Of a stretch of DNA of 64,000 nucleotides, positions 2,127 through 64,000 are shown in pieces. Location of the stretch: the NCBI RefSeq assembly GCF_963675165.1, contig NC_087385.1, positions 330,501 through 394,500 of the forward strand, read 5' to 3'. The notes beneath the pieces were generated by a model that worked only from the letters and a program-made list of their open reading frames with translations, did no database searches and was not told the DNA's origin. Source of the DNA: Halichondria panicea. Its lineage: Eukaryota; Porifera; Demospongiae; Suberitida; Halichondriidae. A program made the position numbers and the translations under genes. How positions within the stretch are numbered: position 1 is the first letter of the stretch; each line of letters begins with the position of its first letter.

Positions 2127-5100
2127 TTAAAAGGGTGCTATTTTGTTCAGTTCCACCATCACCTGTGCCATGCTGGGTCGATGGCTGGGCTCTCTCTTAG
2201 TGCAGTGGAGTATCAGCTCGTACACTGCAGGATGCTGCCTCTGTACTTGGAGAATCATGTCTCGATAATGTTCAGCACTTGGGAATCTACTAGCGGTCAC
2301 CTCACAGAGGACAATGCCGTAGCTGTACACATCGATCTTGACAGACTGTCTCAGAGGTGGAGTGAGAGGATCAAAGGCTTGAGGGATGACTTCAGGAGGG
2401 GAGTAGATTATGGCCCCCTCTCCCATCGTATGAGCATGCTGCAGGAAGTTGGCTGAGCCGAGGTCAGAGACCTTCCCCTTCCACTGGTGGTTGGGCATTC
2501 GCTGGAGGAGGACGTTGGGAGCACTCACATCACGGTGGATGATGGGATCGTAGCGCTGGTGCAGGTAGTTCAGAGCGAGGGCAATGTCCATGAAGATCGA
2601 AAGGCGGTTTCCTGGGTCCAGTTGATTCCTCTCGTACGCTTGTCGGAGATTCATGTCCAGAAGCTCGGTGATGATGAGAGGAGGGGACTGGTCAAACACT
2701 GCCCCAATGAACTGCACCAGGTTGGGGTGTCGTACTTCAGCCAAGAGCCTCATTTCTCTCTGGAGTCTCTCTAGATTGCGTGGGTTGACAATGGCAGCAA
2801 AGAGTCGCTTGACGGCCACCGTCACTGTTCCCTCCAGCACCTCCCCCCATCCTCCAGTGCCAATCGTTCTCATCGTGATCACTCTGTTAGCCGGAATCCT
2901 CCACACCTCTGTGTTGTGTGCTGCCAACTCTTTCGTCTTGCCTTCTAACTCCCTCTCTAGAGCTGTGATTCGAGCAGACAGGTCAGCTTCTCTTCTGTTG
3001 GCCTCAGCCAATTCTCGACCTTTCACTTGTAAAAGTAATTGTGTAGCTTGCTCTCTTTGCTCTGCCAGCTGTGCTCTTTCCTCCGCATCTCCATGACGAC
3101 AATTGGCCTCGGTCAATTCTCTAGCTTGTGTAGCTAATTCTCGATCTTTCTCTTGCAACTGTAGTTGGTGGTGACGTTGAGTGTCGTGCTCTCTCTGCTC
3201 TGCTGCTCGTAGCTGTTGTTCCAGAGCCCTCACCCGGTCTCGAGAGGAGTGGTCGCTGGTCTCACTGACTGATGAGGCACGAGCAGTTGCTTGTCTGATC
3301 CTCTTCTCACTCAATCGCTGGGCGGAGCCTCTAGTGTCGTTGTGGACCACATCCACGAGAGTCCACTTCCCAGCCAAGGGTCCAGCAACAGACGCTGAGG
3401 GTCCAGTCAACTCTGTAGGGGGGATTAAGGAACAAATGTAACAGTATATGCATTCAGAGTCATTGACACATGTATTGTGTGTACTTGTCTATCAGACAAT
3501 AGTTGCCATGGCTACATGTACTAGTAGCTGCTCACCAAATCTCAGTATGGTGGTCTCAGCAACTATCTCATTATTCTCTGAAATGCCTCCAAACACGAGG
3601 ACCTCAGTGAGTCCTGGTCCCAGACTGGTGGCAGTGATGGAGTGGTAGGAACGTGGTGTCATTGACTCAGGAGGTGTCACCTGGAGGCACAAAAAATAAT
3701 GCTCTGATAAATAAATGTTGAGTGTACAGTAGTACTGTGTATTCTGAACAGATCATCAGATAATCCATGTACTGTATGAAATAAATATAACATTACAACA
3801 CGAGGAATCTCAAGGCTATGTGTTTTATATTACAGTGACCCTTTACCAAATTATGCCTCGAGGCTACGCGACCGTGTATGGAAGGGACTGTATGACTTTT
3901 ATTACACGCTTGTAACCTTGACAACGTGACATAATACAGTAAAGGTGTGTGTACATAGCACAAGTATTTAACATCCTCCTAGACTTCAAAGTTATTTACT
4001 CTTGTAAATGAACGTCTCGTATCTCTTTATTACGTCCATTTATTACACGTACACTAACAGTTCATAATAAGACAAGACTCACCTCTGTCCACTTGACAGC
4101 GTCAACATTAAGTGTCCACATGTCCCCCAGTGTCTCTTTGCCTTTATCCAGTCCTCCGTACACCAGTAGTTGAGGGTGGTCCTGGCCATAGTTGAGACAA
4201 CAGGCAGCATGGCATGCCCTCTCCACTGGCCATGGCTCTCCCTGTACTGGCTTCACCTTAGTGACCTCCTACACACAGTGAACACACAGTATTGTGCATT
4301 TCAATGTGGCAGTACTAATTCCAACTCACCATGGTATTGAAATTAAACAGGTAGACTTCATTGAGCCTACCACGACGACCAGATTGGATCCCTCCAAAGA
4401 GGACTGCCCTGTGCTGGTCCACCATGGTGAAGGTGAAGTGGGAACAGGGAGGAGGTCTCTCTCCTCTGAGCTCAGGGGACGACCAGACACCTGGAAGTGG
4501 GGGTGGGGCAATTTAGAGAATGGTACAATGTTACATCATCCTTATAACATTGATTGATATGAAAGTGAACATGGTTTCCTATGTGAGTGAGGGTGGGACT
4601 CCGCCCACCAGTAGCTAGATACCCTATAAGTGTATGTAATGAAAACATACAGCGAATGTGCACGTTGACAAAAGTTACCATTTTGTGTGTCAAAGAAATG
4701 GAACTCGTTTGTCCGTCCACTTCCATCAGACCGTCCAGTCTTGGTGAATGCTGATCCTGGTTGTGTGGTGCCCTCAATACCGTATCCTCCAAAGCAGCAC
4801 AGAGTTCTCTCATTCACACGAACAAGTCCACAGAAAGCCTTTTTCATAGGCTGACTACCAGAGGTTTGAACTTTGGTCCACTGGAGAGTGTCCAGATCAA
4901 GCTTGCTCATGTCATTAAAATAAGAAGACCGGTCCTTACCACCAAAGGTGTACAGGCAACGACCTACACAAACAGAACAACCACCATACTTTCCAGGGGG
5001 TAGAGGTCCAGTGGTGGGCAAGAGGCTCCACAGCTCAGTGCTTGGATCATACACAGCAATGATGTTAGACCCCTTCAGTCCTGGACCAGCCCCTCTCCAC

Positions 5101-5189
5101 CTGTAATGGTGTCCGTCAACTGCAGAGAATTGACCAAAACGAGGTGATGGTTCAACTGGAGCATCCATTACCTGCACAGGAGTGATCAT
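2127..5189 (-). CDS. Kelch-coiled-coil-protein kinase, unit I (intact)
   Basis: Five coding exons on the minus strand: 5189-4679, 4490-4330, 4268-4083, 3680-3536 and 3412-2127. All junctions are GT-AG and phases are consistent, giving 762 aa from ATG 5189. Acceptor-like sequence at 5172 leaves open an upstream exon. Residues about 10-335 form six Kelch blades, each with a Gly-Gly ending such as YTFGG, CCFGG, LFGG, VYGG or VFGG. Residues about 393-500 are a Gln/Glu/Arg-rich coiled coil. Residues about 513-760 are a kinase domain of RAF/TKL type with Gly loop GTGGWGEV, VAVK lysine 536, catalytic HRDVSAPN, DLG in place of DFG, and PPE in place of APE. No signal peptide or membrane segment is seen, so it should be intracellular. 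Kelch propellers bind protein ligands, so a scaffold or sensor coupled to a kinase output is a reasonable inference. This architecture matches no named animal kinase family I know. Confidence 0.9.
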
Positions 5190-5351
5190 GAGACAGTGTT
5201 TATGCCATCACACACACACACAATCATTGGTTGAGCCTGGACTAAGATTATGCATGCTAGCTATAGGACCTAACCAGATCAACAACCATCACATGACTGA
5301 CATGAACTCTGTATATCTATAGCAGCAATGAGACACAGCATTTCAACTTAC

Positions 5352-5428
5352 AAGTCATGGACAGTAGAACACTCCCTCAGAGATATCAGAGAGCTGCTAT
5401 TGTTGTTGGAGTTCTGTTGATCTTGCAT
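5352..5428 (-). other. Possible 5' exon of Kelch-kinase unit I
   Basis: On the minus strand an ATG at 5428 opens a short Asn/Ser-rich peptide beginning MQDQQNSNNNSSS and runs into a good donor (gtaagt) at 5351. The same sequence is present in units II and III. The phase does not fit the next Kelch exon (phase 2 against phase 0), so it may be 5' UTR with an upstream ORF, or the start of an alternative transcript. Confidence 0.3.
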
Positions 5429-9577: not shown

Positions 9578-9906
9578 GTTTTATCACTCAAATATGAAAT
9601 TTGATGATATCATTTTAGAGAAGAAGCTCTTTCAGATGCTTAATTCCCAAATTTGGAACGGGTCATAATTAGGGTTAGGTATAGGACTTTTGATCTTTAT
9701 TTCCTCACTTCATGTGTATGTATTTATAGTCTTGTGGTCATGTGCAATACTAACAGTGGTTGTGTTGTGTGGGCAGTATTGTACGTAGGTACATGTACAG
9801 TTGCTAAAAAGCTACGAAAACTCTGCCAATCTAATTACAACATACTGAAAGTAGTATCAATTGAGTTTACAATGTGTGTGTACATGTACAGTACAGTACA
9901 GTACAG

Positions 9907-10552
<646 letters not shown>

Positions 10553-10630
10553 TCATGTGATATGTGTGTGCAGTGTAGGCAGCCTCTCAATACACAGGCC
10601 TCCACTGTATAGCAATGTACTTTACCCCCC

Positions 10631-10666
10631 CCCCACACACACCCACACACACACACACACACACGT

Positions 10667-10716
<50 letters not shown>

Positions 10717-10742: not shown

Positions 10743-13205
10743 GTGTTGGAGTGTCTCCTGCCCACAGGACCTGACCCACCAGCACTGGACCCAGAGGCAG
10801 AGGAAGTGGATATGATAGAGAGTGAGGGGACGAGGGGAGTGGGCGGGGCACAAAGGGGTGGAGCCATATACGATGAAGATGAGGAGGATGAAGGAGTGGG
10901 CGGGGCACAGAGGGTGGGCTGCTCTCAACAGTGACACTCTTAGGAACTCTATATTCACCGCTTTGATTGTATTTATAGACTGGTTTTGTGGTTATTGCTA
11001 TTGTTCTAAATATGTGAATAACGTTTGCCCATACCACTCATCATAATTATTGTGAACGGTAATATTGATTAGCATGAGACTGAGATAAAGTCAATAGTAA
11101 TCATCATAATAGGAGAGTGCAAACACACACTACAAAAGCCAATGCTAAAATAAAAATCATAAAGTTATTAAAATCAATATTCAATACAAAGACGCTGCTA
11201 GATAGATAAGTGTTCACATTGTTCATAGTTAAAAGGGTGCTATTTTGTTCAGTTCCACCATCACCTGTGCCATGCTGGGTCGATGGCTGGGCTCTCTCCT
11301 AGTGCAGTGGAGTATCAGCTCGTACACTGCAGGACGCTGCCTCTGTACTTGGAGAATCATGTCTCGATAATGTTCAGCACTTGGGAATCGACTAGCGGTC
11401 ACCTCACAGAGGACAATACCGTAGCTGTACACATCGATCTTGACAGACTGTCTCAGAGGTGGAGTGAGAGGATCAAAGGCTTGAGGGATAACTTCAGGAG
11501 GGGAGTAGATTATGGCCCCCTCTCCCATCGTATGAGCATGCTGCAGGAAGTTGGCTGAGCCCAGGTCAGAGACCTTCCCCTTCCACTGGTGGTTGGGCAT
11601 TCGCTGGAGGAAGACGTTGGGAGCACTCACATCACGGTGGATGATGGGATCGTAGCGCTGGTGCAGGTAGTCCAGAGCGAGGGCAATGTCCTTGAAGATC
11701 GAGAGGCGGTTTCTTGGGTCCAGTTGATTCCTCTCGTACGCTTGTCGGAGATTCATATCCAAAAGCTCGGTGATGATGAGAGGAGGGGACTGGTCAAACA
11801 CTGCCCCAATGAACTGCACCAGGTTGGGGTGTCGTACTTCAGCCAAGAACCTCATTTCTCTCTGAAGTCTCTCTAGATTGCGTGGGTTGACAATGGCAGC
11901 AAAGAGTCGCTTGACGGCCACCGTCACTGTTCCCTCCAGTACCTCCCCCCATCCTCCAGTGCCAATCGTTCTCATCGTGATCACTCTGTTGGCCGGAATC
12001 CTCCACACCTCTGTGTTGTGTGCTGACAACTCTTTCGTCTTGCCTTCTAACTCTCTCTCTAGAGCTGTGATTCGAGCAGACAGGTCAGCTTCTCTTCTGT
12101 TGGCCTCAGCCAATTCTCGATCTTTCACTTGTAAAAGTAATTGTGTAGCTTGCTCTCTTTGCTCTGCCAGCTGTGCTCTTTCCTCCGCATCTCCATGACA
12201 ACGGTTGGCCTCGGTCAATTCTCTAGCTTGTGTAGCTAATTCTCGATCTTTCTCTTGCAACTGTAGTTGGTGGTGACGTTGAGTGTCGTGCTCTCTCTGC
12301 TCTGCTGCTCGTAGCTGTTGTTCCAGAGCCCTCACCCGGTCTTGAGAGGAGTGGTCGCTGGTCTCACTGACTGATGAGGCACGAGCAGTTGCTTGTCTGA
12401 TCCTCTTCTCTCTCAGTCGCTGGGCGGAGCCTCTAGTGTCGTTGTGGGCCACATCCACGAGAGCCCACTTCCCAGCCGAGGGTCCAGCAACAGACGCTGA
12501 GGGTCCAGTCAACTCTGTAGGGGGGATTAAGGAACAAATGTAACAGTATATGCATTCAGAGTCATTGACACATGTATTGTGTGTACTTGTCTATCAGACA
12601 ATAGTTGCCATGGCTACATGTACTAGTAGCTGCTCACCAAATCTCAGTATGGTGGTCTTTGCATAGGGTACAATGACAGAACGGCCTCCAAACACGAGGA
12701 CCTCAGTGAGTCCTGGTCCCAGACTGGTGGCAGTGATGGAGTGGAGGCAACGTGGTGTCATTGACTCAGGAGGTGTCACCTGGAGGCATAAAATAATGCT
12801 CTGATAAATAAATGTTGAGTGTACAGTAGTACTGTGTATTCTGAACAGATCATCAGATAATCCATGTACTGTATGAAATAAATATAACATTACAACACGA
12901 GGAATCTCAAGGATCTGTGTTTTATATTACAGTGACCCTTTACCAAATTATGCCTCGAGGCTACGCGAACGTGTACGGAAGGGACTGTATGACTTTTATT
13001 ACACGCTTGTAACCTTGACAACGTGATATAATACAGTGAAGGTGTATGTACATAGCACAAGTATTTAACATCCTCCTAGACTTCAAAGTTATTTACTCTT
13101 GTAAATGAACGTCTCGTATCTCTTTATTACGTCCATTTATTACACGTACACTAACAGTTCATAATAAGACAAGACTCACCTCTGTCCACTGGACAGTGTC
13201 TACAT

Positions 13206-13757
13206 CCGACTAGAAAAACATTTGCAATGTGAAAAATTGCTAGGATTGGCCAGGGGAACCACAAAAAAGCGTGGGAACAAGAAATCAGACGAGAGCATAA
13301 CTCCAATCCGTTACAACGTCAATCACATGTATACTGGTAGTTTTCCCATGTTTTCCCAGCCAATATGCCACGCAATTTTTACTGGTGGAGTGATGACCAA
13401 TCCCTATATATATTTATTATACATCCATTTTAGAATGTGGGGCACATAATCATGATGATTTGTGATGAATTGATGTTCCTAATACATGCAGTGTAGAGCA
13501 CAGGTACACACAGTCCATCCATGCGTAGTAACATGCACGGACCGTACTGGTGACTGCATGGAATGATGTGGTGGATGGAAGCTGATAGGTGGATCTGGAA
13601 CACAGTCTATTATTTAATATACTATGTATTGTACATGTTCATGACGTTGTAACGGATTGGAGATATGCTCTCGTCTGATTTCTTGTTCCCACGCTTTTTT
13701 GTGGTTCCCCTGGCCAATCCTAGCAATTTTTCACATTGCAAATGTTTTTCTAGTCGG
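13206..13757. mobile_element. MITE with 116-bp terminal inverted repeats in the unit II Kelch exon
   Basis: Bases 13206-13321 and 13642-13757 are inverted copies with essentially one mismatch in the stretch compared (cataactcc against catatctcc). The outer end reads ccgactagaaaaacatttgc. The 320-bp centre has no convincing ORF. The near identity of the arms points to a recent insertion. Confidence 0.88.
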
Positions 13758-14313
13758 ATTCCCTTTCTTTTTCAGTACAGTTTACGTATCATGACATGCA
13801 TAAGTGGAACGTCAAGAGGCAGTACAAGAAGAGAAGACAGGACTAATCAGATATCTTCTCGAATATCTCTGGACTAATAATTATAGTATAATGAGTAATA
13901 ATTTATTGCTTGATAATTATGTTGAATTTGCGAATCATTATTAAATGACAGCCATTTTAAGAGCATGATATCTAGCCAGTGCATATAGCATGCCTGTCAG
14001 AGAAAGGGAGCTAGAGCTGAACAGTGTGAAGAAAAGGAGCACCTCAGGCTCTGGAAAAGCACTGCTGCACTGATTTTAGGCGCACGGTTTATTAGCCACG
14101 CCTATCTATTATTATTGGCCACAACGCAATTGCTGAGTCATTAAAGATGGCGGAATTGTCTAGGTGAGAGAAATAGAGACTGAGAGGTCATCTGCCTCGT
14201 GGAAGCAATCGCAAATCTGAAGAAGCGCTTTGTAATCCAGGTTGTAGTCGTTTGGAAACCCTGTGCAGAATGTCCTGGAGATGGCTGTACTTGGAGTAAA
14301 TGCTGGGCAAGAA

Positions 14314-14354
<41 letters not shown>

Positions 14355-14617
14355 GTCAGTCAGACAAAGAGCGGTGAAACGTCGAAATAGTGCAATTTTT
14401 AAAATGAAAATATTCATTCATTAAAATGTTTATGGATTATGAAATGAGAGATACAAAGAGAGAAAAGGCTAAATAAACTATCTGTTCAGCCAGTTTCTTG
14501 ATGTGGCCTTTCCCTGCAGAGATAGAACAGTTTGAACATGAGTCAAAATAATTGAAATATTGCTAAACACGGGCAAACCCACTGCCAATCCTATGTAAAA
14601 CCTACTGGTTTTACTAA
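13758..14617. other. Remainder of the insertion in the unit II Kelch exon
   Basis: This stretch lies between the MITE and the resumption of Kelch sequence and is absent from the other five Kelch copies. It contains a (TTAC)n run and no recognisable gene. A short open stretch near 14199 has no family I recognise. It may be part of a composite or second mobile element. Confidence 0.5.
14307..14354. repeat. (TTAC)n microsatellite
   Basis: About twelve consecutive ttac tetranucleotides lie inside the insertion that splits the unit II Kelch exon. Confidence 0.9.
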
Positions 14618-16745
14618 TTAAGTGTCCACATGTCCCCCAGAGCCGTGACGTCATTATCCTGCCCTCCGTACACCAGTAGTTGAGGGTGGTCCTGGCCATA
14701 GTTGAGACAACAGGCAGCATGGACTGACCTCTCCACTGGCCATGGCTCTCCCTGTACTGGCTTCACCTTAGTGACCTCCTACACACAGTGAACACACAGT
14801 ATTGTGCATTTCAATGTGGCAGTACTAATTACAACTCACCATGGTCCTGAAGTCAAACAAGTACACTTCATTGACTCTACCACTGCCAGATTGGTTCCCT
14901 CCAAAGAGGACTGCCCTGTGCTGGTCCACCATGGTGAAGGTGAAGTGGGAACAGGGAGGAGGTCTCTCTCCTCTGAGCTCAGGGGACGACCAGACACCTG
15001 GAAGTGGGGGTGGGGCAATTTACAGAATAGTACAATGTTACATCATCCTTATAACATTGATTGATATGAAAGTGAACATGGTTTCCTATGTGAGTGAGGG
15101 TGGGACTCCGCCCATCAGTAGCTAGATACCCTATAAGTGTATGCAATGAAAACATACAGCGAATGTGCACGTTGACAAAAGTTACCATTTTGTGTGTCAA
15201 AGAAATGGAATTCGTTTGTACATCCTGCACTTCCATCAGACAATCTAGTCTTGGTGAATGTTGATCCTGGTTGTGTGGTGCCCTCAATACCGTGTCCTCC
15301 AAAGCAGCACAGAGTTCTCTCATTCACACGGACAAGTCCACAGAAAGCCTTTTTCATAGGCTGACTACCAGAGGTTTGAACTTTGGTCCACTGGAGAGTG
15401 TCCAGATCAAGCTTGCTCATGTCATTGACGTAAGAAGACCCATCATGACCACCAAAGGTGTACAGACAACGACCTACACAAACAGAGCAACCACCCCCCT
15501 CTCCAGGGGGTAGAGGTCCAGTGGTGGGCAAGAGGCTCCACAGCTCAGTGCTTGGATCATACACAGCAATGATGTTAGACCCCAGTCCTGGATCAACCCC
15601 CCTCCACAGATAATGGCGTCCGTCAACTGCAGAGAATTGGCCATAACGAGGTGATGGTTCAACTGGAGCATCCATTACCTGCACAGGAGTGATCATGAGA
15701 CAGTGTTTATGCCATCACACACACACACAATCATTGGTTGAGCCTGGACTGAGATTATGCTAGCTATATAGGACCTAACCAGATCAACAACCATCACATG
15801 ACTGACATGAACTCTGTATATCTATAGCAGCAATGAGACACAGCATTTCAACTTACAAGTCATGGACAGTAGAACACTCCCTCAGAGATATCAGAGAGCT
15901 GCTATTGTTGTTGGAGTTCTGTTGATCTTGCATACCAGCCACGCCCCCACTATTGCAAAGGTTATGAGGAGCCCACTCCCAAAATGGCTGGAGGAGGTGT
16001 AGAGATCTGAAGGTTGTCTAGCGCTGCAGGAGTAGGTGAGTGTAACTAGGAATACTAGGAATATTGCACATACAGCTTATACCCATAGGCCTGTCAATGG
16101 GCAATATTATAGGTCTAGGTCTAGTCTAGTTGCAGAGCATGTCCTACAATGTGTAAAGATTGCTCATGACAGTGTGTGTATTTATCATTGTGTAGAGGAG
16201 ATGTGTTTGTTGAGTGGGAGCATCCTCCGTCACCACCACTCTCCAGTATCCATGGAGATGACACTATCCTCTTTGAGCTCCTGAGAACTAAACAACATTC
16301 AACAGTTGACGACAATCGACGATGCAATTACGTTAGAATCCAGCCATGCATGACATGTGCACAGACTGTGGGGGGTCTGGTATCAAGGTGACCCACCGCC
16401 CACTTGGCCCCGGCATGATGCAGCAGATACAGAGCGTGTGCACAGACTGTGGGGGGTCTGGTGATTACATAAGAGACAAGGACAAGTGCAAGAAATGCAA
16501 ATGCAAAGGAAAGTGTCTCGTGGAAATCAACCACAAACAAGAGGTATGAGAATAATTAGAGCACTGCCAGCCACAATCACTTAGAGACACTCTCCACTGG
16601 AATAATTAATATGAGCTATAATTCATGGTCATTAATTTGTTGAAATGTGGTCCCAAGTGCCAATTTTTGAAAGGCCCAATTAATTTATTTCTGGTTACCT
16701 ACTTTCAGTGACTTTGTGGTATCCTGAAAGCTTAAAGATGGTACG

Positions 16746-20812: not shown

Positions 20813-23800
20813 TTAAAAGGGTGCTATTTTGTTCAGTTCCACCATCACCTGTGCCATGCTGGGTCGATGGCTGGGCTCTCTCTTAGTGCAGTGGAGTATC
20901 AGCTCGTACACTGCAGGATGCTGCCTCTGTACTTGGAGAATCATGTCTCGATAATGTTCAGCACTTGGGAATCTACTAGCGGTCACCTCACAGAGGACAA
21001 TGCCGTAGCTGTACACATCGATCTTGACAGACTGTCTCAGAGGTGGAGTGAGAGGATCAAAGGCTTGAGGGATGACTTCAGGAGGGGAGTAGATTATGGC
21101 CCCCTCTCCCATCGTATGAGCATGCTGCAGGAAGTTGGCTGAGCCGAGGTCAGAGACCTTCCCCTTCCACTGGTGGTTGGGCATTCGCTGGAGGAGGACG
21201 TTGGGAGCACTCACATCACGGTGGATGATGGAATCGTAGCGCTGGTGCAGGTAGTTCAGAGCGAGGGCAATGTCCATGAAGATCGAAAGGCGGTTTCCTG
21301 GGTCCAGTTGATTCCTCTCGTACGCTTGTCGGAGATTCATGTCCAGAAGCTCGGTGATGATGAGAGGAGGGGACTGGTCAAACACTGCCCCAATGAACTG
21401 CACCAGGTTGGGGTGTCGTACTTCAGCCAAGAGCCTCATTTCTCTCTGGAGTCTCTCTAGATTGCGTGGGTTGACAATGGCAGCAAAGAGTCGCTTGACG
21501 GCCACCGTCATTGTTCCCTCCAGCACCTCCCCCCATCCTCCAGTGCCAATTGTTCTCATCGTGATCACTCTGTTAGCCGGAATCCTCCACACCTCTGTGT
21601 TGTGTGCTGCCAACTCTTTCGTCTTGCCTTCTAACTCCCTCTCTAGAGCTGTGATTCGAGCAGACAGGTCAGCTTCTCTTCTGTTGGCCTCAGCCAATTC
21701 TCGACCTTTCACTTGTAAAAGTAATTGTGTAGCTTGCTCTCTTTGCTCTGCCAGCTGTGCTCTTTCCTCCGCATCTCCATGACGATGATTGGCCTCGGTC
21801 AATTCTCTAGCTTGTGTAGCTAATTCTCGATCTTTCTCTTGCAACTGTAGTTGGTGGTGACGTTGAGTGTCGTGCTCTCTCTGCTCTGCTGCTCGTAGCT
21901 GTTGTTCCAGAGCCCTCACCCGGTCTCGAGAGGAGTGGTCGCTGGTCTCACTGACTGATGAGGCACGAGCAGTTGCTTGTCTGATCCTCTTCTCACTCAA
22001 TTGCTGGGCGGAGCCTCTAGTGTCGTTGTGGACCACATCCACGAGAGTCCACTTCCCAGCCAAGGGTCCAGCAACAGACGCTGAGGGTCCAGTCAACTCT
22101 GTAGGGGGGATTAAGGAACAAATGTAACAGTATATGCATTCAGAGTCATTGACACATGTATTGTGTGTACTTGTCTATCAGACAATAGTTGCCATGGCTA
22201 CATGTACTAGTAGCTGCTCACCAAATCTCAGTATGGTGGTCTCAGCAACTATCTCATTATTCTCTGAAATGCCTCCAAACACGAGGACCTCAGTGAGTCC
22301 TGGTCCCAGACTGGTGGCAGTGATGGAGTGGAGGCAACGTGGTGTCATTGACTCAGGAGGTGTCACCTGGAGGCACAAAAAATAATGCTCTGATAAATAA
22401 ATGTTGAGTGTACAGTAGTACTGTGTATTCTGAACAGATCATCAGATAATCCATGTACTGTATGAAATAAATATAACATTACAACACGAGGAATCTCAAG
22501 GCTATGTGTTTTATATTACAGTGACCCTTTACCAAATTATGCCTCGAGGCTACGCGACCGTGTACGGAAGGGACTGTATGACTTTTATTACACGCTTGTA
22601 ACCTTGACAACGTGATATAATACAGTAAAGGTGTGTGTACATAGCACAAGTATTTAACATCCTCCTAGACTTCAAAGTTATTTACTCTTGTAAATGAACG
22701 TCTCGTATCTCTTTATTACGTCCATTTATTACACGTACACTAACAGTTCATAATAAGACAAGACTCACCTCTGTCCACTTGACAGCGTCAACATTAAGTG
22801 TCCACATGTCCCCCAGTGTCTCTTTGCCTTTATCCAGTCCTCCGTACACCAGTAGTTGAGGGTGGTCCTGGCCATAGTTGAGACAACAGGCAGCATGGCA
22901 TGCCCTCTCCACTGGCCATGGCTCTCCCTGTACTGGCTTCACCTTAGTGACCTCCTACACACAGTGAACACACAGTATTGTGCATTTCAATGTGGCAGTA
23001 CTAATTCCAACTCACCATGGTATTGAAATTAAACAGGTAGACTTCATTGAGCCTACCACGACGACCAGATTGGATCCCTCCAAAGAGGACTGCCCTGTGC
23101 TGGTCCACCATGGTGAAGGTGAAGTGGGAACAGGGAGGAGGTCTCTCTCCTCTGAGCTCAGGGGACGACCAGACACCTGGAAGTGGGGGTGGGGCAATTT
23201 AGAGAATGGTACAATGTTACATCATCCTTATAACATTGATTGATATGAAAGTGAACATGGTTTCCTATGTGAGTGAGGGTGGGACTCTGCCCACCAGTAG
23301 CTAGATACCCTATAAGTGTATGTAATGAAAACATACAGCGAATGTGCACATTGACAAAAGTTACCATTTTGTGTGTCAAAGAAATGGAACTCGTTTGTCC
23401 TTCCACTTCCATCAGACCGTCCAGTCTTGGTGAATGTTGATCCTGGTTGTGTGGTGCCCTCAATACCTTCTCCTCCAAAGCAGCACAGAGTTCTCTCATT
23501 CACACGGACAAGTCCACTGAAAGCTTTTTTCATAGAATGACTACCAGAGGTTTGAACTTTGGTCCACTGGAGAGTGTCCAGATCAAGCTTGCTCATGTCA
23601 TTGAAGTAAGAAGACCCATACTGACCACCAAAGGTGTACAGGCAACGACCTACACAAACAGAGCAACCACCCTGCTTTCCAGGGGGTAGAGGTCCAGTGG
23701 TGGGCAAGAGGCTCCACAGCTCAGTGCTTGGATCATACACAGCAATGATGTTAGACCCCTTCAGTCCTGGACCAGCCCCTCTCCACATGTAATGGTGTCC

Positions 23801-23875
23801 GTCAACTGCAGAGAATTGACCAAAACGAGGTGATGGTTCAACTGGAGCATCCATTACCTGCACAGGAGTGATCAT
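20813..23875 (-). CDS. Kelch-coiled-coil-protein kinase, unit III (intact)
   Basis: Exons are 23875-23365, 23176-23016, 22954-22769, 22366-22222 and 22098-20813, the same lengths as unit I, giving 762 aa from ATG 23875. The frame also stays open upstream to 23971. Six Kelch blades, a coiled coil and a kinase domain are all uninterrupted, with VAVK, HRDVSAPN, DLG and PPE as in unit I. The kinase exon differs from unit I at only a handful of codons. The Kelch exons differ mainly in blade-tip residues: QYG instead of KDR after blade-2 Gly-Gly, E instead of Y after blade-3 Gly-Gly, KQ instead of KY in PPGxxGG, and RCLH instead of RSYH in blade 6. This is the clearest pair for testing selection. 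It is convergent with DNAJA remnant II and divergent from DNAJA remnant III. Confidence 0.9.
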
Positions 23876-30133: not shown

Positions 30134-33100
30134 TTAAAAGGGTGCTATTTTGTTGAGTTCCACCATCACCTGTGCCATGCTGGGTCGATGGCTGGGCTCT
30201 CTCTTAGTGCAGTGGAGTATCAGCTCGTACACTGCAGGACGCTGCCTCTGTACTTGGAGAATCATGTCTCGATAATGTTCAGCACTTGGGAATCGACTAG
30301 CGGTCACCTCACAGAGGACAATACCATAGCTGTACACATCGATCTTGACAGACTGTCTTGGAGGTGGATTAAACGGATCTGCGGCTTGAGGGATGACTTC
30401 AGGAGGGGAGTAGATTATGGCCCCCTCTCCCATTGTATGAGCATGCTGCAGGAAGTTGGCTGACCCGAGGTCAGAGACCTTCCCCTTCCACTGGTGGTTG
30501 GGCATTCGCTGGAGGAGGACGTTTGGAGCACTCACATCACGGTGGATGATGGGATCGTAGCGCTGGTGCAGGTAGTTCAGAGCTAGGGCAATGTCCATGA
30601 AGATCGAGAGGCGGTTTCCTGGGTCCAGTTGATTCCTCTCGTACGCTTGTCAGAGATTCATGTCCAGAAGCTCGGTGATGATGAGAGGAGGGGATCGATT
30701 GGCTTGGTTTTGCTCATCAAAAATAGCACCAATGAATTGCACAAGGTTTGGGTGTCGCACTTCAGCCAATAGTCTCATTTCTCTCTCCATTTTCTCAATG
30801 TAGATTGGGAGAGCAATTTCTTCGTGTAGTCGCTTGACGGCCACGCTCACTGTTCCCTCCAGCACCTCCCCCCACCCTCCTTTGCCAATCCTCCTGCCAA
30901 TGATCACTCTGTTGGCCGGAATCCTCCACACCTCTGTGTTGTGTGCTGCCAACTCTTTCGTCTTGCCTTCTAACTCCCTCTCTAGAGCTGTGATTCGAGC
31001 AGACAGGTCAGCTTCTCTTCTGTTGGCCTCAGCCAATTCTCGATCTTTCACTTGTAAAAGTAATTGTGTAGCTTGCTCTCTTTGCTCTGCCAACTGTGCT
31101 CTTTCCTCCGCATCTCCATGGCGACGGTTGGCCTCGGTCAATTCTCTAGCTTGTGTAGCTAATTCTCGATCTTTCTCTTGCAACTGTAGTTGGTGGTGAC
31201 GTTGAGTGTCGTGCTCTCTCTGCTCTGCTCGTAACTGTTGTTCCAGAGCCCTCACCCGGTCTTGAGAGGAGTGGTCGCTGGTCTCACTGACTGATGAGGC
31301 ACGAGCAGTTGCTTGTCTGATCTTCTTCTCACTCAGTCGCTGGGCGGAGCCTCTAGTGTCGTTGTGGGCCACATCCACGAGAGCCCACTTCCCAGCCGAG
31401 GGTCCAGCAACAGAAGCTGAGGGTCCAGTCAACTCTGTAGGGGGGATTAAAGAACAAATGTAACAGTATATGCATTCAGAGTCATTTACACATGTATTGT
31501 GTGTACTTGTCTAACAGACAATAGTTGCCATGGCTACATGTACTAGTAGCTGCTCACCAAATCTCAGTATGGTGGTCTCAGCAATGGGATCTCGCCCCCA
31601 CTTCTGCTGGCCTCCAAACACGAGGACCTCAGTGAGTCCTGGTCCCAGACTGGTGGCAGTGATGGAGTGGTTGTAACATGGTGTCATTGACTCAGGAGGT
31701 GTCACCTGGAGGCATAAAAAATAATGCTCTGATAAATAAATGTTGAGTGTACAGTAGTACTGTGTATTCTGAACAGATCATCAGATAATCCATGTACTGT
31801 ATGAAATAAATATAACATTACAACACGAGGAATCTCAAGGCTATGTGTTTTATATTACAGTGACCCTTTACCAAATTATGCCTCGAGGCTATGTGACCGT
31901 GTACGGAAGGGACTGTATGACTTTCATTACATGCTTGTAACCTTGACAACGTGATATAATACAGTAAAGGTGTGTGTACATAGCACAAGTATTTAACATC
32001 CTCCTAGACTTCAAAGTTATTTACTCTTGTAAATGAACGTCTCGTATCTCTTTATTACGTCCATTTATTACACGTACACTAACAGTTCATAATAAGACAA
32101 GACTCACCTCTGTCCACTGGACAGTGTCTACATCCAGTATCCACATGTCCCCCAGTGTCTTCCTGCCATTATCCACTCCTCCGTACACCAGTAGTTGAGG
32201 GTGGTCCTGGCCATAGTTGAGACAACAGGCAGCATGGGATGACCTCTCCACTGGCCATGGTTTTCCCTGTACTGGCTTCACCTTAGTGACCTCCTACACA
32301 CAGTGAACACACAGTATTGTGCATTTCAATGTGGCAGTACTAATTCCAACTCACCATGGTGCTGAAATTGAACTGGTAGACATCATTGACCCTACTACTG
32401 CCAGGTTGGTAGCCTCCAAAGAGGACTGCCCTGTGCTGGTCTACCATGGTGAAGGTGAAGGTACTACAGGGAGAAGGTCTCTCTCCTCTGAGCTCAGGGG
32501 ACGACCAGACACCTGGAAGTTGGGGTGGAGCAATTTAGAGAATGGTACAATGTTACATCATCCTTATAACATTGATTGATATGAAAGTGAACATGGTTTC
32601 CTATGTGAGTGAGGGTGGGACTCCGCCCACCAGTAGCTAGATACCCTATAAGTGTATGCTATGAAAACATACAGCGAATGTGCACGTTGACAAAAGTTAC
32701 CATTTTGTGTGTCAAAGAAATGGAACTCGTTTGTCCATCCCCTTCCATCAGACAGTCCAGTCTTGGTGAATGTTGATCCTGGTTGTGTGGTGCCCTTAAT
32801 ACCTCCTCCTCCAAAGCAGCACAGAGTTCTCTCATTCACACGGACAAGTCCACAACCACCCTTTTTCATAGGCTTACTACCAGAAGTTTGAACTTTAGTC
32901 CACTGGAGAGTGTCCAGATCAAGCTTGCTCATGTCATTGAAGAAAGAAGACCCACCCCAACCACCAAAGGTGTACAGGCAACGACCTACACAAACAGAGC
33001 AACCATCATACTCTCCAGGGGGTAGAGGTCCAGTGGTGGGCAAGAGGCTCCACAGCTCAGTGTTTGGATCATACACAGCAATGATGTTAGACCCTCGTCC

Positions 33101-33214
33101 TGGACCAGCCCCCCTCCACAGGTAATGGTGTCCGTCAACTGCAGAGAATTGACCCCAACGAGGTGATGGTTCAACTGGTAGTCGACCAAGAAAGGAGCGA
33201 ACAGCTTTCAACAT
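30134..33214 (-). pseudogene. Kelch-coiled-coil-kinase, unit IV, stop codon in the kinase domain
   Basis: Exons are 33214-32701, 32512-32355, 32293-32108, 31705-31558 and 31434-30134, and they would give 768 aa. The first exon starts with acceptor ctgcag, then acaATG, and reads MLKAVRSFLGR; units V and VI share this start region, whereas I-III begin MITPVQ. At 30652-30650 the conserved Leu-Arg-Gln of LLDMNLRQAYE is interrupted: CGA has become TGA. Translation would end just after the kinase N-lobe, leaving Kelch, coiled coil and a third of the kinase. The rest of the C-lobe, including HRDVSAPN and DLG, stays open. The N-lobe patch (IGKGGWGEV, DEQNQANRSPP) resembles unit V, whereas flanking coiled coil and C-lobe resemble I-III. 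The product could be a Kelch adaptor without kinase activity, or the stop could mark recent inactivation. Confidence 0.85.
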
Positions 33215-41991: not shown

Positions 41992-44972
41992 TTAGGATTT
42001 GTCGTCTTCTAACATGTTCAGGACTTGAGCCATAGTTGGTCGGTTGTCGGGGCTCTCTTGAGTGCAGTTAGTAATCAGATCGTGGAATTGTGGATAGTCT
42101 TTTTCGACTTCTTTAAGCATGCCCAAGTAATTCTTTTCTGATGGAAATGTGCTAGTGATGACCTCGCATAACAAAACACCGTAGCTGTACACATCAATCT
42201 TAGTTGTTTGTGGAATTGGCTCTCCTCTTGGATTGTAAGCTCGAGGTATCACTTCAGGGGCTGAATAAAGAATACATCCTTCACCACTTGTGTGAGCATG
42301 CTGCAGGAAGTTGGCTGAGCCGAGGTCAGAGACCTTCCCCTTCAACTGGTGGTTGGGCATTCGCTGGAGGAGGACGTTGGGAGCACTCACATCACGATGG
42401 ATGATGGGATCGTAGCGCTGGTGCAGGTAGTTCAGAGCTAGGGCAATGTCCATGAAGATCGAGAGGCGGTTTCTTGGGTCCAGTTGATTCCTCTCGTACG
42501 CTTGTCGGAGATTCATGTCCAGAAGCTCGGTGACGAGGGTAGGAGGGGATTCATTGTCTTGCTCATCAAAAATAGCACCAATGAATTGCACAAGGTTTGG
42601 GTGTCGCACTTCAGCCAATAACTTCATTTCTCTCTCCATTTTCTCGATAAAAATTGGGTATTCAATTTCTTCGTGTAGTCGCTTGACGGCCACGCTCACT
42701 GTTCCCTCCAGCACCTCCCCCCACCCTCCTTTGCCAATCCTCCTGCCAATGATCACTCTGTTGGCCGGAATCCTCCACACCTCTGTGTTGTGTGCTGCCA
42801 ACTCTTTCGTCTTGCCTTCTAACTCCTTCTCTAGAGCTGTGATTCGAGCAGACAGGTCAGCTTCTCTTCTGTTGGCCTCAGTAATTTCACGATCTTTTGT
42901 AGCCAAATCTCTAGCTTGTGTAGCTAATTCAAGGTCTTTAATAGCCAATTCACGATCCTTCTCTTGTAAAATTAATTGGGTAGCCTGGTTCGCATCTTGA
43001 TAATGACGGTTGGCCTCAGACAATTCACGGTTGTTAGTGACTAATTCTCTAGCTTGTGTAGCCAATTCACGATCCTTCTCTTGCAACTGTAGTCGGAGGT
43101 GATATTCTCTCTTCTCACTCAGTCGCTGGGCAGAGCCTCTAGTGTCGTTGTGGGCCACATCCACGAGAGCCCACTTCTCAGCCGAGGGTCCAGCAACAGA
43201 AGCTGAGGGTCCAGTCAACTCTGTAGGGGGGATTAAGGAACAAATGTAACAGTATATGCATTCAGAGTCATTGACACATGTATTGTGTGTACTTGTCTAT
43301 CAGACAATAGTTGCCATGGCTACATGTACTAGTAGCTGCTCACCAAATCTCAGTATGGTGGTCTCAGCAATGGTATCTCCCTCCCACTTCCGACAACCTC
43401 CAAACACGAGGACCTCAGTGAGTCCTGGTCCCAGACTGGTGGCAGTGATGGAGTGGTACCAACGTGGTGTCATTGACTCAGGAGGTGTCACCTGGAGGCA
43501 CAAAAAATAATGCTCTGATAAATAAATGTTGAGTGTACAGTAGTACTGTGTATTCTGAACAGATCATCAGATAATCCATGTACTGTATGAAATAAATATA
43601 ACATTACAACACGAGGAATCTCAAGGCTATGTGTTTTATATTACAGTGACCCTTTACCAAATTATGCCTCGAGGCTACGCAACCGTGTACGGAAGGGACT
43701 GTATGACTTTTATTACACGCTTGTAACCTTGACAACACAGTAAAGGTGTGTGTACATAGCACAAGTATTTAACATCCTCCTAGACTTCAAAGTTATTTAC
43801 TCTTGTAAATGAACGTCTCGTATCTCTTTATTACGTCCATTTATTACACGTACACTAACAGTTCATAATAAGACAAGACTCACCTCTGTCCACTGGACAG
43901 TGTCTACATCCAGCATCCACATGTCCTCCAGTGTCTTGTTGCCATTATCGATTCCTCCGTACACCAGTAGTTGAGGGTGGTCCTGGCCATAGTTGAGACA
44001 ACAGGCAACATGGCCTGACCTCTCCACTGGCCATGGCTCTCCCTGTACTGGCTTCACCTTAGTGACCTCCTACACACAGTGAACACACAGTATTGTGCAT
44101 TTCAATGTGGCAGTACTAATTCCAACTCACCATGGTCCTAAAATCGAATAGGTAGACTTCATTCACTCTACGACGGCCAGGTTGGACCCCTCCAAAGAGG
44201 ACTGCCCTGTGCTGGTCCACCATGGTGAAGGTGAAGGCACTACAGGGAGAAGGTCTCTTTCCTCTGAGTTCAGGGGACGACCAGACACCTGGAAGTGGGG
44301 GTGGGGCAATTTAGAGAATGGTACAATGTTACATCATCCTTATAACATTGATTGATATGAAAGTGAACATGGTTTCCTATGTGAGTGAGGGTGGGACTCC
44401 GCCCACCAGTAGCTAGATACCCTATAAGTGTATGCAACGAAAACATACAGTGAATGTGCACATCGACAAAAGTTACCATTTTGTGTGTCAAAGAAATGGA
44501 ACTCGTTTGTCCATCCCCTGGTGAATGTTGATCCTGGTTGTGTGGTGCCCTCAATACCGAGTCCTCCAAAGCAGCACAGAGTTCTCTCATTCACACGGAC
44601 AAGTCCACAGCCAGCCTTTTTCATAGGCTGACTACCAGAGGTTTGAACGTTGGTCCACTGGAGAGTGTCCAGATCAAGCTTGCTCATGTCATTAGAGTAA
44701 GAAGACCCATCCCAACCACCAAAGGTGTACAGGCAACGACCTACACAAACAGAGCGACCACTCCACTCTCCAGGGGGTAGAGGTCCAGTGGTGGGCAAGA
44801 GGCTCCACAGCTCAGTGCTTGGATCATACACAGCAATGATGTTAGACCCTCGTCCTGGACCATACCCCCTCCACATGTAATGGTGTCCGTCAACTGCAGA
44901 GAATTGACAATAACGAGGTGATGGTTCAACTGGTGGTGGACGACCAAGAAAGGAGCGAACAGCTTTCAACAT
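41992..44972 (-). CDS. Kelch-coiled-coil-protein kinase, unit V (intact, most divergent)
   Basis: Exons are 44972-44477, 44288-44131, 44069-43884, 43491-43344 and 43220-41992, all in phase, giving 738 aa. The start is the ATG shared with unit IV (MLKAVRSFLGR), right after a ctgcag acceptor. It has six Kelch blades, then a coiled coil rearranged relative to I-IV (extra RELATQARELVTNNRELSEA type heptads and shorter overall), then the kinase. The kinase has IGKGGWGEV, VAVKRL, HRDVSAPN and DLG, but carries the canonical APE (YSAPEV) where I-IV have PPE, and its last 80 residues are clearly different (TSTFPSEKNYLGMLKEVEKD and a shorter tail ending EDDKS). The middle of the kinase is nearly identical to I-III at DNA level, giving a mosaic. 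The gene is convergent with Atg8-like fragment B and upstream of ZFAND1 copy 2, on the same strand. Confidence 0.9.
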
Positions 44973-47351: not shown

Positions 47352-47375
47352 GCCTAGTGGCTGACGTATACAGAT

Positions 47376-60845: not shown

Positions 60846-61224
60846 TAGTCTGGGGGCCAGACCTTTTTCTCAGAGGGGGGGGGAAGAGAGAAAGAAGGTC
60901 TGGAGGCTCTTGCAGCACTTCCGTGTGCTCTTGGAATGTCAATAGGGGAGGAGACTGTGATATTGGAGGTTATAAAGAAGGAGTAGATGTAGCAATACTC
61001 TCATTTCATTGGCTGTATCTAAATTCCATTGGCTGTAATCCAAATTCCACAAAGGCAATACTCGCATTTCATTGGGTTAAAAAATCACATGACATAGGAT
61101 ATGCATTTCATTGGCTCTGGCCACATTCCGCTAGAGCACACGGAAATGCTGCAAGAGTCTCCAGACCTAATCCTAGCGCTCTTGATTTTTTGCCCCCGAG
61201 CTATTAGGTCTGGCCCCCAGACTA
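60846..61224. mobile_element. MITE with TAGTCTGGGGGCCAGACC ends
   Basis: The first 18 bases (tagtctgggggccagacc) and the last 18 are perfect inverted repeats. A second inverted pair, ctcttgcagcacttccgtgt and acggaaatgctgcaagag, lies inside. The interior has no transposase. Confidence 0.85.
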
Positions 61225-61477
61225 GTTCAGTAAATGGTCTGTGTTATGAGCTTTGGAAATTCAGATTCCAGGCGTAGGGAAAAAGCGCTGTTGAAGTAGT
61301 CTGGCCACGCCCTCCCATACTTCGTATATGGTCGGGTGAACTTGCAATGAACAGTTCGTGCAGACACCCCAAGATTTTCTTGGGGTGTGAAACCGCTTGT
61401 CAAGTGCCTTGTGGGCCGTTGTGGCCTGTTGTGTAAACTGTTACGTAAGCTATTGCATCACGAAAAAGTAGCTAGAT

Positions 61478-61786
61478 ATGGGCCTCTACTGCTGTTTGTG
61501 TGCGAATGAGTCTCTGGACAACCGAAGGCGAAAGAAGCTCAATGGTCATAGCTGTTCTGAAGCAAGAGAAGTACTTGTGCAGCTCCTTCCAGTACCTCTG
61601 CATTGCATCCCTGAAACTAGTGCTAGTGACAGTATATTGTGTCACCAGTGCGAGAAACAACTGAAGAATGTCCATGCTCAACAAGAAAAGCTATGCAAGG
61701 TAAAGAAGGAAGCAACAGAGCTAATAAATGGTCTGCTTTCAAGACATGCAGAAGATAACTTAACCACCACCGCCAAAAAGAAGTAG
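61478..61786 (+). CDS. Small Cys-motif protein or exon, unknown function
   Basis: An open frame of 102 aa starts MGLYCCLCANESLDNRRRKK and ends AKKK. It has two Cys pairs, CCLC near residue 5 and CHQC near residue 51, separated by a Cys/His-containing stretch (NGHSC, LHC), followed by a basic Lys-rich helix. This spacing resembles treble-clef or ZAD-like N-terminal zinc modules found before transposase or zinc-finger domains, but I cannot place it in a named family. It lies between a MITE and a RecQ-like remnant, so it may be a first exon of a mobile-element gene. The stop is followed by a short imperfect repeat (accattccaccagtgtcag) near 61837-61895. It could also be spurious, although the Cys pairs argue against chance. 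Confidence 0.45.
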   Translation: MGLYCCLCANESLDNRRRKKLNGHSCSEAREVLVQLLPVPLHCIPETSASDSILCHQCEKQLKNVHAQQEKLCKVKKEATELINGLLSRHAEDNLTTTAKKK

Positions 61787-61904
61787 AGTTATGCAGGAAC
61801 CCCCCACACCACCCATTCCATTATCTGTTTCAGTACCAACCATTCCACCAGTGTCAGCAGCAACCATTCCACCGGTGTACGTGTCAGCAGCAACCATTAA
61901 AATA

Positions 61905-62630
61905 AGAACCATAAGAAATATTGTCTCGGAAAGGAGGGGAGGCAATTAAAGTAGGATCGTCTATACATAACCTTCTACTGACAATGTAAAATGTTTCTGT
62001 TGTAGAGGTAGCAGTAAGTGCGTGAACACCGACATTGTCTGGAATGAGGCTCCTTAAATCTCCAATCTCGCGACTCGAAAATCATCTCCCCAGGTTTTAA
62101 CACAATGGGCTTCATCAACTACTACTGCAACGAGATTCTTTATATACGGTGGTGACAGAAGCGTATTTCGAAAAATACCCTTCGCTAATATGCTCTCTGG
62201 GGAGATGAACACCAACTGAGCTTCTCCTTTCAGTACTCTAGCTGTTAATAGCACTACGGTCTGTCTGAGCTTCTCCAACGTATTCCACTGTCAATCCTCC
62301 AGCTGCATACTTTTTTTGTTGATCCATCATCAGCGAAGTGAGAGGACTAATACAAAGTACAATGCTTCCAGATGTTCCTGCAAAACAGAAAAAGGCGTAT
62401 ATATAGGTACACTCATACAGCAATTTTAGTTCACCTTTCAATTGGTCAAAGGCCATAGGTAATGCAGCAAAGATTACTGACTTTCCATAGCCGGTTGGCA
62501 GTGACACAAATGTGTCCTTTCCTCCAATGATTGAATACATTGCTTTCATTTGCTCTGGCTTTAAATAATGGATCCCAATTGCTCTAGCACTCTCAATTAT
62601 CACGTCTTGCATCTTCATGTGTCTTTCCAT
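61905..62630 (-). pseudogene. RecQ-like DNA helicase remnant, frameshifted
   Basis: On the minus strand ATG 62630 opens MERHMKMQDVIIESARAIGI and continues through helicase motif I (LPTGYGKSVIF). An intron of about 55 bp (gtgaac to ttgcag, near 62436-62381) leads to CISPLTSLMMDQQ (motif Ia), then VFISPES and the DEAH box (VVVDEAHCVKTWGDDFR) and an ALTATST motif III. These are RecQ-family hallmarks. The frame is broken at least twice: an extra base near 62250, between VGEAQTD and RVLKGEAQLVF, and another near 62065, between GDDFRVA and EIGDLRSLIPDN. No helicase C-terminal domain is found. RecQ-like helicases unwind DNA in repair. Such truncated copies can be dispersed with mobile elements, which the repeat-rich setting supports; that origin is an inference. 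Confidence 0.82.
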
Positions 62631-63057
62631 AGTCTTGCACTATAATTATGTACTAAATCTTGAAAGTCATAAACTAAATGTTCCACACTGATTTTTGACC
62701 ACACCTGTACCCATTCAGTGATTGCATGAATTTCACCACACAGTGGGTAACACCCACCACTACACCTACACTATTTGGTTAACACCCAATTATCACTACT
62801 AGGTTATCTAACCGCGGCACTTAGGGCCTGACACAAGTGGTGATAGTGAAGTTCACCAGACTCTTGCAAAGAGGCTGGAAATCGAGACTACTGTTGAAGG
62901 GGGCAGTCGAGGCTAGTACGTGTGGTGAGTTTTATCACCTCTACTATCTATGGTTTTATAGACTATATATACTAGCCAGAAGTTTGTATGATATTTGTGA
63001 TCTGGATAGCTAAAATGTGTGTATGTATATTGCTCACTGTCCTTTAATATACTGCAG
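62631..63057. other. Spacer before the inverted Kelch copy
   Basis: About 430 bp without a recognised gene. It contains short inverted fragments (aatcgagactactgttgaag, cagtcgaggctagtacg) that resemble the ends of the small element at 1538. The last part, from about 63000, matches the 5' flank of Kelch-kinases IV and V in inverted orientation. Confidence 0.45.
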
Positions 63058-64000
63058 ACAATGTTGAAAGCTGTCTACCACCAGTTGAACCACCACCTCG
63101 TTATGGTCCGTTCTCTACTGCAGCTGACGGATGCCATTACGTGTTGATGGGGAAAGGTCCAGACGTGAGGTCTAACATTATTGCTGTGTGTGATCCAAGC
63201 ACTGAGCTGTGGAGCCTCTTGCCCACCACTGGACCTCTACCCTATGGAGAGCATAGTGGTTGCTCTGTTTGTGTAGGTCGTTGCCTGTACACCTTTGGTG
63301 GTGACGATGGGTCTACTTACTTGAGCAAGCTTGATGGGTCTTCTTACGTCAATGACTTGAGCAAGCTTGATCTGGACACTCTCCAGTGGACCAAAGTTCA
63401 ATCTTGTGGTAGTCAGCCTATGAAAAAGGTTTTCTGTGGACTTGTCAGTGTGAATGAGAGAACTCTGTGCTGCTTTGGAGGACTCTGTATTGAGGGCTCC
63501 ACACAACCAGGATCAACATTCACCAGTCCATGGTCTGATGGACGTGGATTGACGAACGAGTTCCATTTCTTTGATATACAAAATGGTAACTTTTGTCCTT
63601 TGCTGTATGTCTTCATTGCTTACACTTGTAGGATATCTAGCTACCGTATAGCGGGAAATTTTCGTGAAGTGCAACATTTCATGTTTTTCGAGGCAGAGCA
63701 GTTAACATGAATTAAAAACTGGGGTAAACTCCTACGCACCGGGTAGTTCACATGCAGAGCTATTGGTGGGTGTGGTTTCCTGTCATTGAACCTCAAATAT
63801 TAGAACCCACGAAAATTTCTGCTGAGGGCTCTCAAGCCAAATAGCGAAATTTTCGCGGGTTCTATACGGTACTGGTGGAATCTCACCCTCACTCACATAG
63901 GAAACTATGTTTACTTTCTTTCACCATTCTCTAAATTGCCGAACCCCCACTTCCAGGTGTCTGGTCGTCCCCTGAGCTCAGAGGAGAGAGACCTCCTCCC
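63058..64000 (+). pseudogene. Kelch copy VI, plus strand, cut by the window edge
   Basis: The first Kelch exon is 63058-63585 and the second starts at 63957 and runs off the window. Blades 1-3 are recognisable (ELWSLLPTTGPLPYGEHSG, YTFGGDDG, CCFGGLCIEG). Relative to units IV/V a deletion of about 16 bp after the codons for MLKAV puts that ATG out of frame with the propeller. A small in-frame duplication in blade 2 repeats LSKLDGSSYVND-type sequence. Beyond the frame problem the exon is open, so an alternative upstream start (phase 1) would rescue it; hence its status is uncertain. The orientation is opposite to the other five copies. Whether a kinase follows lies outside the window. Confidence 0.7.
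63642..63871. mobile_element. MITE of the TACCGTATAGCGG family in Kelch VI intron 1
   Basis: The ends taccgtatagcgggaaattt and gggttctatacggta are inverted, with inner ttttcg and cgaaaat copies. The matching intron of the other Kelch copies lacks it, so it inserted after duplication. Confidence 0.75.

Follow-up and report, generated by a model that had tools for sequence, protein, structure and literature searches.

In this study, we report a family of genes of the sponge Halichondria panicea in which a Kelch beta-propeller is followed by a presumed coiled coil and a protein kinase, and whose copies differ most at loops that alignment places on the presumed binding face of the propeller, a pattern typical of recognition-receptor families. 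Six such genes (units I to VI), read by a first-pass annotation in a stretch of 64 kb of contig C9 (NC_087385.1, positions 330,501 to 394,500), were located there, and the family was followed through the genome of 131 Mb. The whole stretch is called the window, and positions given without a contig name are those of the window. In each unit, exons A to D encode a six-blade propeller and exon E the presumed coiled coil and the kinase. It is very probable, as judged from the aligned sequences that also place the face, that selection acts on a binding face. The explanation we favour, to which we give a probability of roughly 0.7, is that these proteins would be soluble intracellular recognition receptors that signal through their kinase and are most likely selected by non-self. 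A recognition role of the Kelch-kinase repertoire appears likely in itself, and we infer that this role is immune or concerned with self-recognition, as the first-pass annotation had suggested.

Hypervariable positions of the Kelch propeller

With exon A as query, 80 matches were found in the genome. The best 70 scored at least 207 bits with identities of 64–100%, and the remaining 10 were fragments, incomplete copies or remote relatives; on C9, 60 of the best 70 cluster at 42–1336 kb. We read 52 of these 70 copies, of which 40 were distinct and had open exons A to D (one, of the unit II type, after removal of the disturbed end of its exon C), three were exact duplicates and nine were excluded, six with in-frame stops and three with exons broken or not found. 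Among the 324 Kelch columns of the 40 copies, 101 were invariant, the median entropy was 0.29 bits and 21 columns exceeded 2 bits, the most variable ones holding up to 13 residue types. All the residues that the first-pass annotation had listed for units I to V, both those behind Pro-Arg or its equivalent and those behind Gly-Gly, were present in the alignment, and the hypervariability extends past the window. Taking the two residues after the d-a anchor and the three after the double glycine in the six blades gave 30 rule positions, whose mean entropy was 1.84 against 0.41 elsewhere. They include 13 of the 21 most variable columns; the other eight lie farther behind a double glycine, in presumed longer b-c loops.

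Diversifying selection was sought with a self-written script of the FUBAR kind (codon model, HKY tree and a grid of synonymous and non-synonymous rates), which called 37 of the 324 Kelch codons at P >0.95. In the ten first-listed of these codons the expected non-synonymous rate was 8–20 and the synonymous rate 0.2–1.4. The selected codons occupied 19 of the 30 rule positions, which alignment assigns to the top face, and 18 of the 294 others (p 2e-13), and 14 of these 18 stand behind a double glycine in presumed b-c loops. In this home-made form, the site-wise dN/dS check proposed earlier gave omega above 1 concentrated in, but not confined to, what alignment marks as loops of the top face, four of the 37 codons lying elsewhere. 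All 40 copies carried distinct combinations at 26 hot selected sites. Given that the rule had been derived from the window copies, additional checks were made without the window sequences and with the protein KLHDC2. The 34 copies remaining without the six window sequences, which are relatives of the window copies, gave 49 selected codons, 19 of them in the 30 (p 1e-10), and a separate tree for each exon, which allows for exon exchange, gave 40, with 18 in the 30 (p 3e-11). As a control, the exon of the coiled coil and kinase was analysed in 22 copies (26 of 30 loci with near-complete copies on C9, minus two identical ones and two with stops); none of its 424 codons was under diversifying selection and 140 were under purifying selection.

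The first-pass annotation had used KEAP1 as template of the binding face, a place that belongs rather to KLHDC2, the nearest solved relative of the propeller (2.7e-30, with chains of up to 108.9 bits for the spliced propeller query). Published residues of its pocket are K147, Y163, W191, R236, R241, S269 and W270 (PMC11377542) and R189 (PMC12169847). We placed them by hand on the alignment, the chain number being the residue number minus 21, and all eight letters fitted. In the order given, they fall on columns 137, 155, 182, 227, 235, 266, 267 and 179, with entropy ranks of 18, 7, 12, 4, 19, 35, 3 and 15 among 324, that is, seven of the eight within the top 21 (p 1e-8).

In unit I, which lies on the reverse strand, variable codons of the d-a loops are found in blade 1 at 5133..5138 (F, G; columns 12 and 13, P 0.54 and 0.99) and in blade 3 at 4833..4838 (A, F; columns 136 and 137, P 0.98 and 0.20, the F aligning with K147 of KLHDC2). 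The d-a loops of the other blades hold hypervariable codons, in blade 2 at 4986..4988 (Y; column 69, with 13 residue types in the 40 copies), in blade 4 at 4438..4440 (H; column 210), in blade 5 at 4212..4217 (A, C; columns 266 and 267, aligning with S269 and W270) and in blade 6 at 3645..3650 (S, Y; columns 321 and 322). Hypervariable codons of the b-c loops are placed, from blade 1 to blade 6, at 5088..5090 (A; column 29), 4935..4937 (K; column 95), 4782..4784 (Y; column 155, aligning with Y163), 4387..4389 (I; column 227, aligning with R236), 4149..4151 (L; column 288) and 3582..3584 (I; column 343). The long b-c loop of blade 3 follows at 4713..4721 (S, G, R; columns 179 and 182, P 0.998 and 0.93), its outer two residues aligning with R189 and W191.

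Selection, drift and the source of the variants

The pace of change at these positions was compared with that of neutral sites. Between the 27 copies whose introns are standard, introns A-B, B-C and C-D differed by 2.3–3.1% and fourfold degenerate sites of cold codons by 4.2%, while the 21 hot residues, which were picked by entropy, differed in 78% of the comparisons; the wider figures were 2–9% for introns and 4–6% for the cold fourfold sites. Of the 23 pairs with introns 0.5–1% apart, 22 differed at no fewer than 11 of the 21 hot residues, the mean being 68% of them. The proportion of non-synonymous change (pN) was 0.56 at hot codons and 0.037 at low-entropy codons. Since introns and cold fourfold sites have changed so much less, drift cannot explain the change at the hot sites, and the neutral decay that the first-pass annotation had named as a way for its claim to fail is disfavoured. 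A relaxed constraint, with loops drifting freely and the remainder conserved, would agree with the position of the changes in loops, which are tolerant of substitution. Nevertheless, drift cannot exceed the neutral rate, and the hot codons show 0.56 non-synonymous differences per site, compared with 0.02–0.09 in introns and 0.06 at fourfold sites. The explanation stands refuted except in the case that both the introns and the fourfold sites are strongly constrained or constantly homogenised, and we regard it as extremely improbable.

We give just as little credit to pseudogene decay or assembly error in the repeat array. It would account for the nine of 52 copies that were broken or incomplete and for the letter identity of four of five locus pairs in neighbouring blocks, possibly an assembly duplicate. 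Against it stand 40 distinct open propellers, splice sites with GT in 157 of 160 donors and AG in 149 of 151 acceptors of the aligned copies, 140 kinase codons under purifying selection and the concentration of differences in loop codons. Open frames and conserved splice sites likewise make sequencing error, the other doubt raised earlier, unlikely.

A more serious alternative, although still rather unlikely, is that the propellers are diversified substrate receptors, each kinase having acquired, through its propeller and in the manner of Kelch adaptors of ubiquitin ligases, its own endogenous substrate or partner by subfunctionalisation after duplication, with no role in the recognition of non-self. 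Both KLHDC2 and KLHL12, which are the nearest solved relatives, serve as substrate receptors, and intact kinases fit receptors of endogenous substrates. However, a difference of 68% of the hot residues at an intron distance of 0.5–1%, together with 40 distinct combinations, is a pace that fits an arms race better than 40 fixed partners.

It must be noted that several points weigh against recognition receptors under selection on a binding face. The selection test is home-made, instead of HyPhy or PAML, and four of the 37 selected codons (columns 9, 264, 300 and 306) fall outside both loop classes. Only five of the eight columns matched to KLHDC2 were called selected, those of K147 (P 0.20), R241 (P 0.07) and W191 (P 0.93) being variable and below the call, as was the first position of blade 1 (P 0.54); additionally, trees made from exon A drop columns 155 and 182 from the selected set. 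The kinase control has less power, its tree measuring 0.80 against 4.82, and consists of the closest matches to unit I, with swapped kinases excluded. Nine of 52 copies had to be excluded, and within the window itself damage is seen in units II and IV. Finally, synonymous change is raised within hot codons: fourfold change is 0.117 against 0.058 for the rest, the proportion of synonymous change (pS) 0.338 against 0.089 in low-entropy codons, and the mean posterior synonymous rate 2.3 against 0.73.

This synonymous rise also speaks for targeted mutation, of the type of diversity-generating retroelements or deaminase-driven hypermutation, with selection in a secondary place, and so does the variation of several hot codons at positions 1 and 2 with a third base that is nearly constant. 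The rise of pS exceeds the twofold rise of the fourfold sites and for this reason slightly raises the odds of such a mechanism and slightly lowers those of the recognition repertoire, although path averaging in multi-base changes may inflate pS. On the other side, further hot codons vary at position 3 (T21 G17 A2 in column 69), the first position of the 26 hot selected codons holds the four bases in nearly equal numbers, and fourfold sites one to six codons off are little or not raised, the change being 0.070 adjoining hot codons, 0.053–0.070 one to six codons away and 0.051–0.059 farther off. Above all, the non-synonymous rise, from 0.037 to 0.56, is far larger than the synonymous one, which argues for ordinary mutation and strong selection. 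Targeted mutation as the main cause is thus quite unlikely in our judgement, and some of it may be compatible with the raised synonymous change in hot codons. Two stricter forms were rejected: a local mutation hotspot around the codons, as silent change beside them is little raised (though it is raised within them), and a strict template-type mutagenesis of two codon positions, as there are hot codons in which position 3 varies as well.

With respect to exchange between copies, hot sites were nearly independent beyond about 15 columns, with weak association. The proteins of units I and III are identical in blades 4 and 5 but not in the remaining four, as expected from such exchange. A recombination test on silent sites alone (29 sites) was null, 159–182 of 500 permutations being as low, and with all 113 sites it was notable only at the widest span (3/500), the narrower ones giving 60/500 and 191/500. 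The silent exon sites have diverged somewhat more than the introns of the same copies (4.2% against 2.3–3.1%); retention of old variants in the vicinity of selected codons would produce such an excess, which does not prove it.

Gene architecture and distribution of the family

Unit I, on the reverse strand, consists of exon A (4679..5171, blades 1–3, with ATG at 5168), identified by a Pfam Kelch match and a GT/AG check, exons B (4330..4490, blade 4), C (4083..4268, blade 5) and D (3536..3680, blade 6), identified by alignment and splice sites (GT/AG in exon B), and exon E (2127..3412, presumed coiled coil and protein kinase; PK_Tyr_Ser-Thr, 1.2e-32). The start of translation is most likely in exon A, close behind an acceptor site; there are two alternatives for the first stretch, and the spliced protein has 755 residues. 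The same order on the same strand is found in unit II (11229..15675; A 15187–15675, B 14840–14995, C 14593–14778, D 12639–12779, E 11229–12512), unit III (20813..23854; A 23366–23854, B 23016–23174, C 22769–22954, D 22223–22366, E 20813–22096), unit IV (30134..33187; A 32702–33187, B 32355–32510, C 32108–32293, D 31559–31705, E 30134–31432) and unit V (41992..44942; A 44478–44942, B 44131–44286, C 43884–44069, D 43345–43491, E 41992–43218). Unit VI (63072..64000) is on the forward strand, with exon A at 63072–63584 and exon B starting at 63959 and continuing past the end of the window. In unit II the end of exon C is disturbed and about 1.4 kb of extra DNA separates exons C and D; its Kelch exons are identical to those of the copy at C9:317742.

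The frame of exon A matched PF24681 with 77.4 bits (cut-off 50), which identifies a Kelch beta-propeller of the KLHDC2/KLHL20 group, and exon E matched PF07714 with 113.7 bits (cut-off 23.1), a eukaryotic protein kinase whose catalytic Lys, HRD and DLG (with a DFG-like Asp) are kept in 22 of 22 kinase copies. A search of the PDB with exon E gave nothing at 1e-25. The coiled coil is a heptad leaning only: in the best of seven registers of unit I the hydrophobic fraction was 0.53 at positions a and d and 0.23 elsewhere, and the best Pfam coiled-coil match of the region was weak (E 0.29). No membrane span was found in the spliced protein of unit I, the highest hydropathy over 19 residues (1.27) lying inside the kinase. 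Pfam scanning of exons A, D and E of unit I gave no match to NACHT or NB-ARC (exons B and C being too short for one), to BTB or BACK (short BC and cullin boxes were not looked for), or to death domains or leucine-rich repeats.

The first-pass annotation had described a constant coiled-coil-kinase chassis. This holds only in part and fails for unit II, altered at the end of exon C and behind it as given above, for unit IV, whose exon E holds an in-frame stop, for unit V, whose kinase is diverged, and for eight copies with another kinase (C9:177046–178413, 734020–735411, 748334–749707, 817286–818659, 1113814–1114932, 1128540–1129922, 1153032–1154183 and 1327395–1328798). In these eight, the start of exon E is 71–90% identical to that of the window and the kinase itself just 38–43%, from which it follows that sensor and kinase have been recombined in the family. 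At 36–44% identity, exon E is similar to further clusters on C3, in which exon A has no match. Clusters of related coiled-coil kinases, 36–66% identical to exon E, lie at C3:95–117 kb, 453–501 kb and 570–629 kb and at C9:532–615 kb; those on C3 and at C9:532–615 kb, without a matching Kelch exon A, are possibly the same chassis with another sensor.

Other features of the region and genome were also recorded. The blocks C9:298488–317742 and C9:326659–345684 (the latter with units I and II), about 28 kb apart, are letter-identical in four of five compared locus pairs, and the fifth showed 702 differences in 4281 positions in an ungapped comparison, probably owing to an indel; either a tandem duplication took place very recently or the assembly holds a duplicate. 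A very long GT/AC microsatellite occupies 9850–10560, beside unit I, and a peak of GC skew at 28–30 kb of the window suggests another. Genome matches were obtained for Wnt (10 pieces) and for NF-kB (one locus, three pieces), which marks the genome as that of an animal and agrees with a sponge. The Cys-loop ligand-binding domain had no genome match in a search that was silent in control genomes too, its absence being weak for this reason.

A second Kelch family and comparison with known systems

A genome search for Kelch motifs revealed a larger array on C1 (15.48–17.39 Mb and also 10.99–11.03 Mb), C6 (0.48–0.80 Mb) and C28. One copy of this C1 family, used as query, gave at least 128 matches that were at least 82% identical, 128 having been scored of 467 candidates. 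Upstream of one copy lie a kinase piece and then charged frames resembling a coiled coil, so that this copy runs from kinase through coiled coil to Kelch. The propeller is closest to KLHL12 and hardly alignable with that of the window (24% over 108 residues). In three copies, few as they are, the residue after the double glycine varied in six of six blades, and the d-a positions varied in 10 of 11 (one more being gapped) against 48 of 293 positions elsewhere. At these 17 loop positions there were 39 non-synonymous and no synonymous codon differences, and 99 and 53, respectively, elsewhere. The d-a anchors were chosen after viewing the three sequences, while the rule for the position after the double glycine is free of choice. 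Apparently, the same loop pattern is present in a separate Kelch lineage, as far as these sequences tell.

In the soluble receptor that we propose, an N-terminal six-blade propeller of the KLHDC2 kind would be joined by a coiled coil to a C-terminal kinase with its catalytic residues. Each propeller would recognise its own short peptide or protein surface. Binding of the ligand, together with assembly of the coiled coils, would gather the kinases, and these might then phosphorylate each other in trans and trigger one shared output. Variants would come from tandem duplication and exchange between copies, selection keeping new binding faces, and the selecting force would most likely be non-self, that is, microbial or viral proteins or allorecognition. 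Sponges live among dense microbes and reject grafts.

We put at even odds the broader proposition that an early-branching animal has built intracellular germline Kelch-kinase repertoires twice, in opposite domain orders (about 70 and at least 128 matches), with binding faces that far outpace the remainder of the gene, and that these form a class of animal immune or self-recognition receptors not found in print. In the titles and abstract beginnings returned for sponge, Kelch, kinase and hypervariable topics, no such family was found. The question addressed is how animals without adaptive immunity separate friend from foe. With its specificity confined to roughly two dozen residues of loops, on a frame that stays constant, the repertoire would be readable, predictable and testable; soluble propellers are to be expected, the pocket of KLHDC2 points to the site of the ligand, and the kinase gives an assay.

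Plant receptor-like kinases and animal IRAK and RIPK also join a recognition or adaptor domain to a kinase in immune signalling. Unit I differs from them in having no membrane span, nor death domain or leucine-rich repeats in the scanned exons A, D and E, and the kinship of its kinase to RLK, IRAK and RIPK was judged at Pfam level alone. KLHDC2, whose degron pocket residues align with variable columns of the Kelch-kinase propeller, is a single ubiquitin-ligase adaptor with one kind of degron, whereas the sponge propeller continues into a coiled coil and kinase and belongs to a family of dozens. The F-box and BTB-MATH proteins of nematodes and plants resemble the sponge genes in their large expansions, which have been proposed to recognise foreign proteins (PMC4063957), and differ in being ubiquitin ligase adaptors without a kinase. 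Two Kelch genes are listed among those that change in sponges given microbial patterns (PMC6208332). In the HNWD genes het-e, het-d and het-r of Podospora, the codons under positive selection belong to the upper face of the WD40 propeller, where they occupy the d-a loop and the b-c turn, and the copies are homogenised outside these codons (PMC1805685). Both families would comprise intracellular propeller receptors with near-identical copies and selected codons of an upper face, which for the Kelch-kinase proteins is placed by alignment. HNWD proteins, however, combine WD40 with NACHT and exchange near-identical repeats within and between genes, whereas the sponge proteins combine Kelch with a kinase, their blades differ from one another and the variation is between genes. 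The resemblance, by analogy, is one of way of working and not of kinship, and if two sponge architectures and a fungal propeller family have converged on these loops, this would point out a general route to recognition repertoires.

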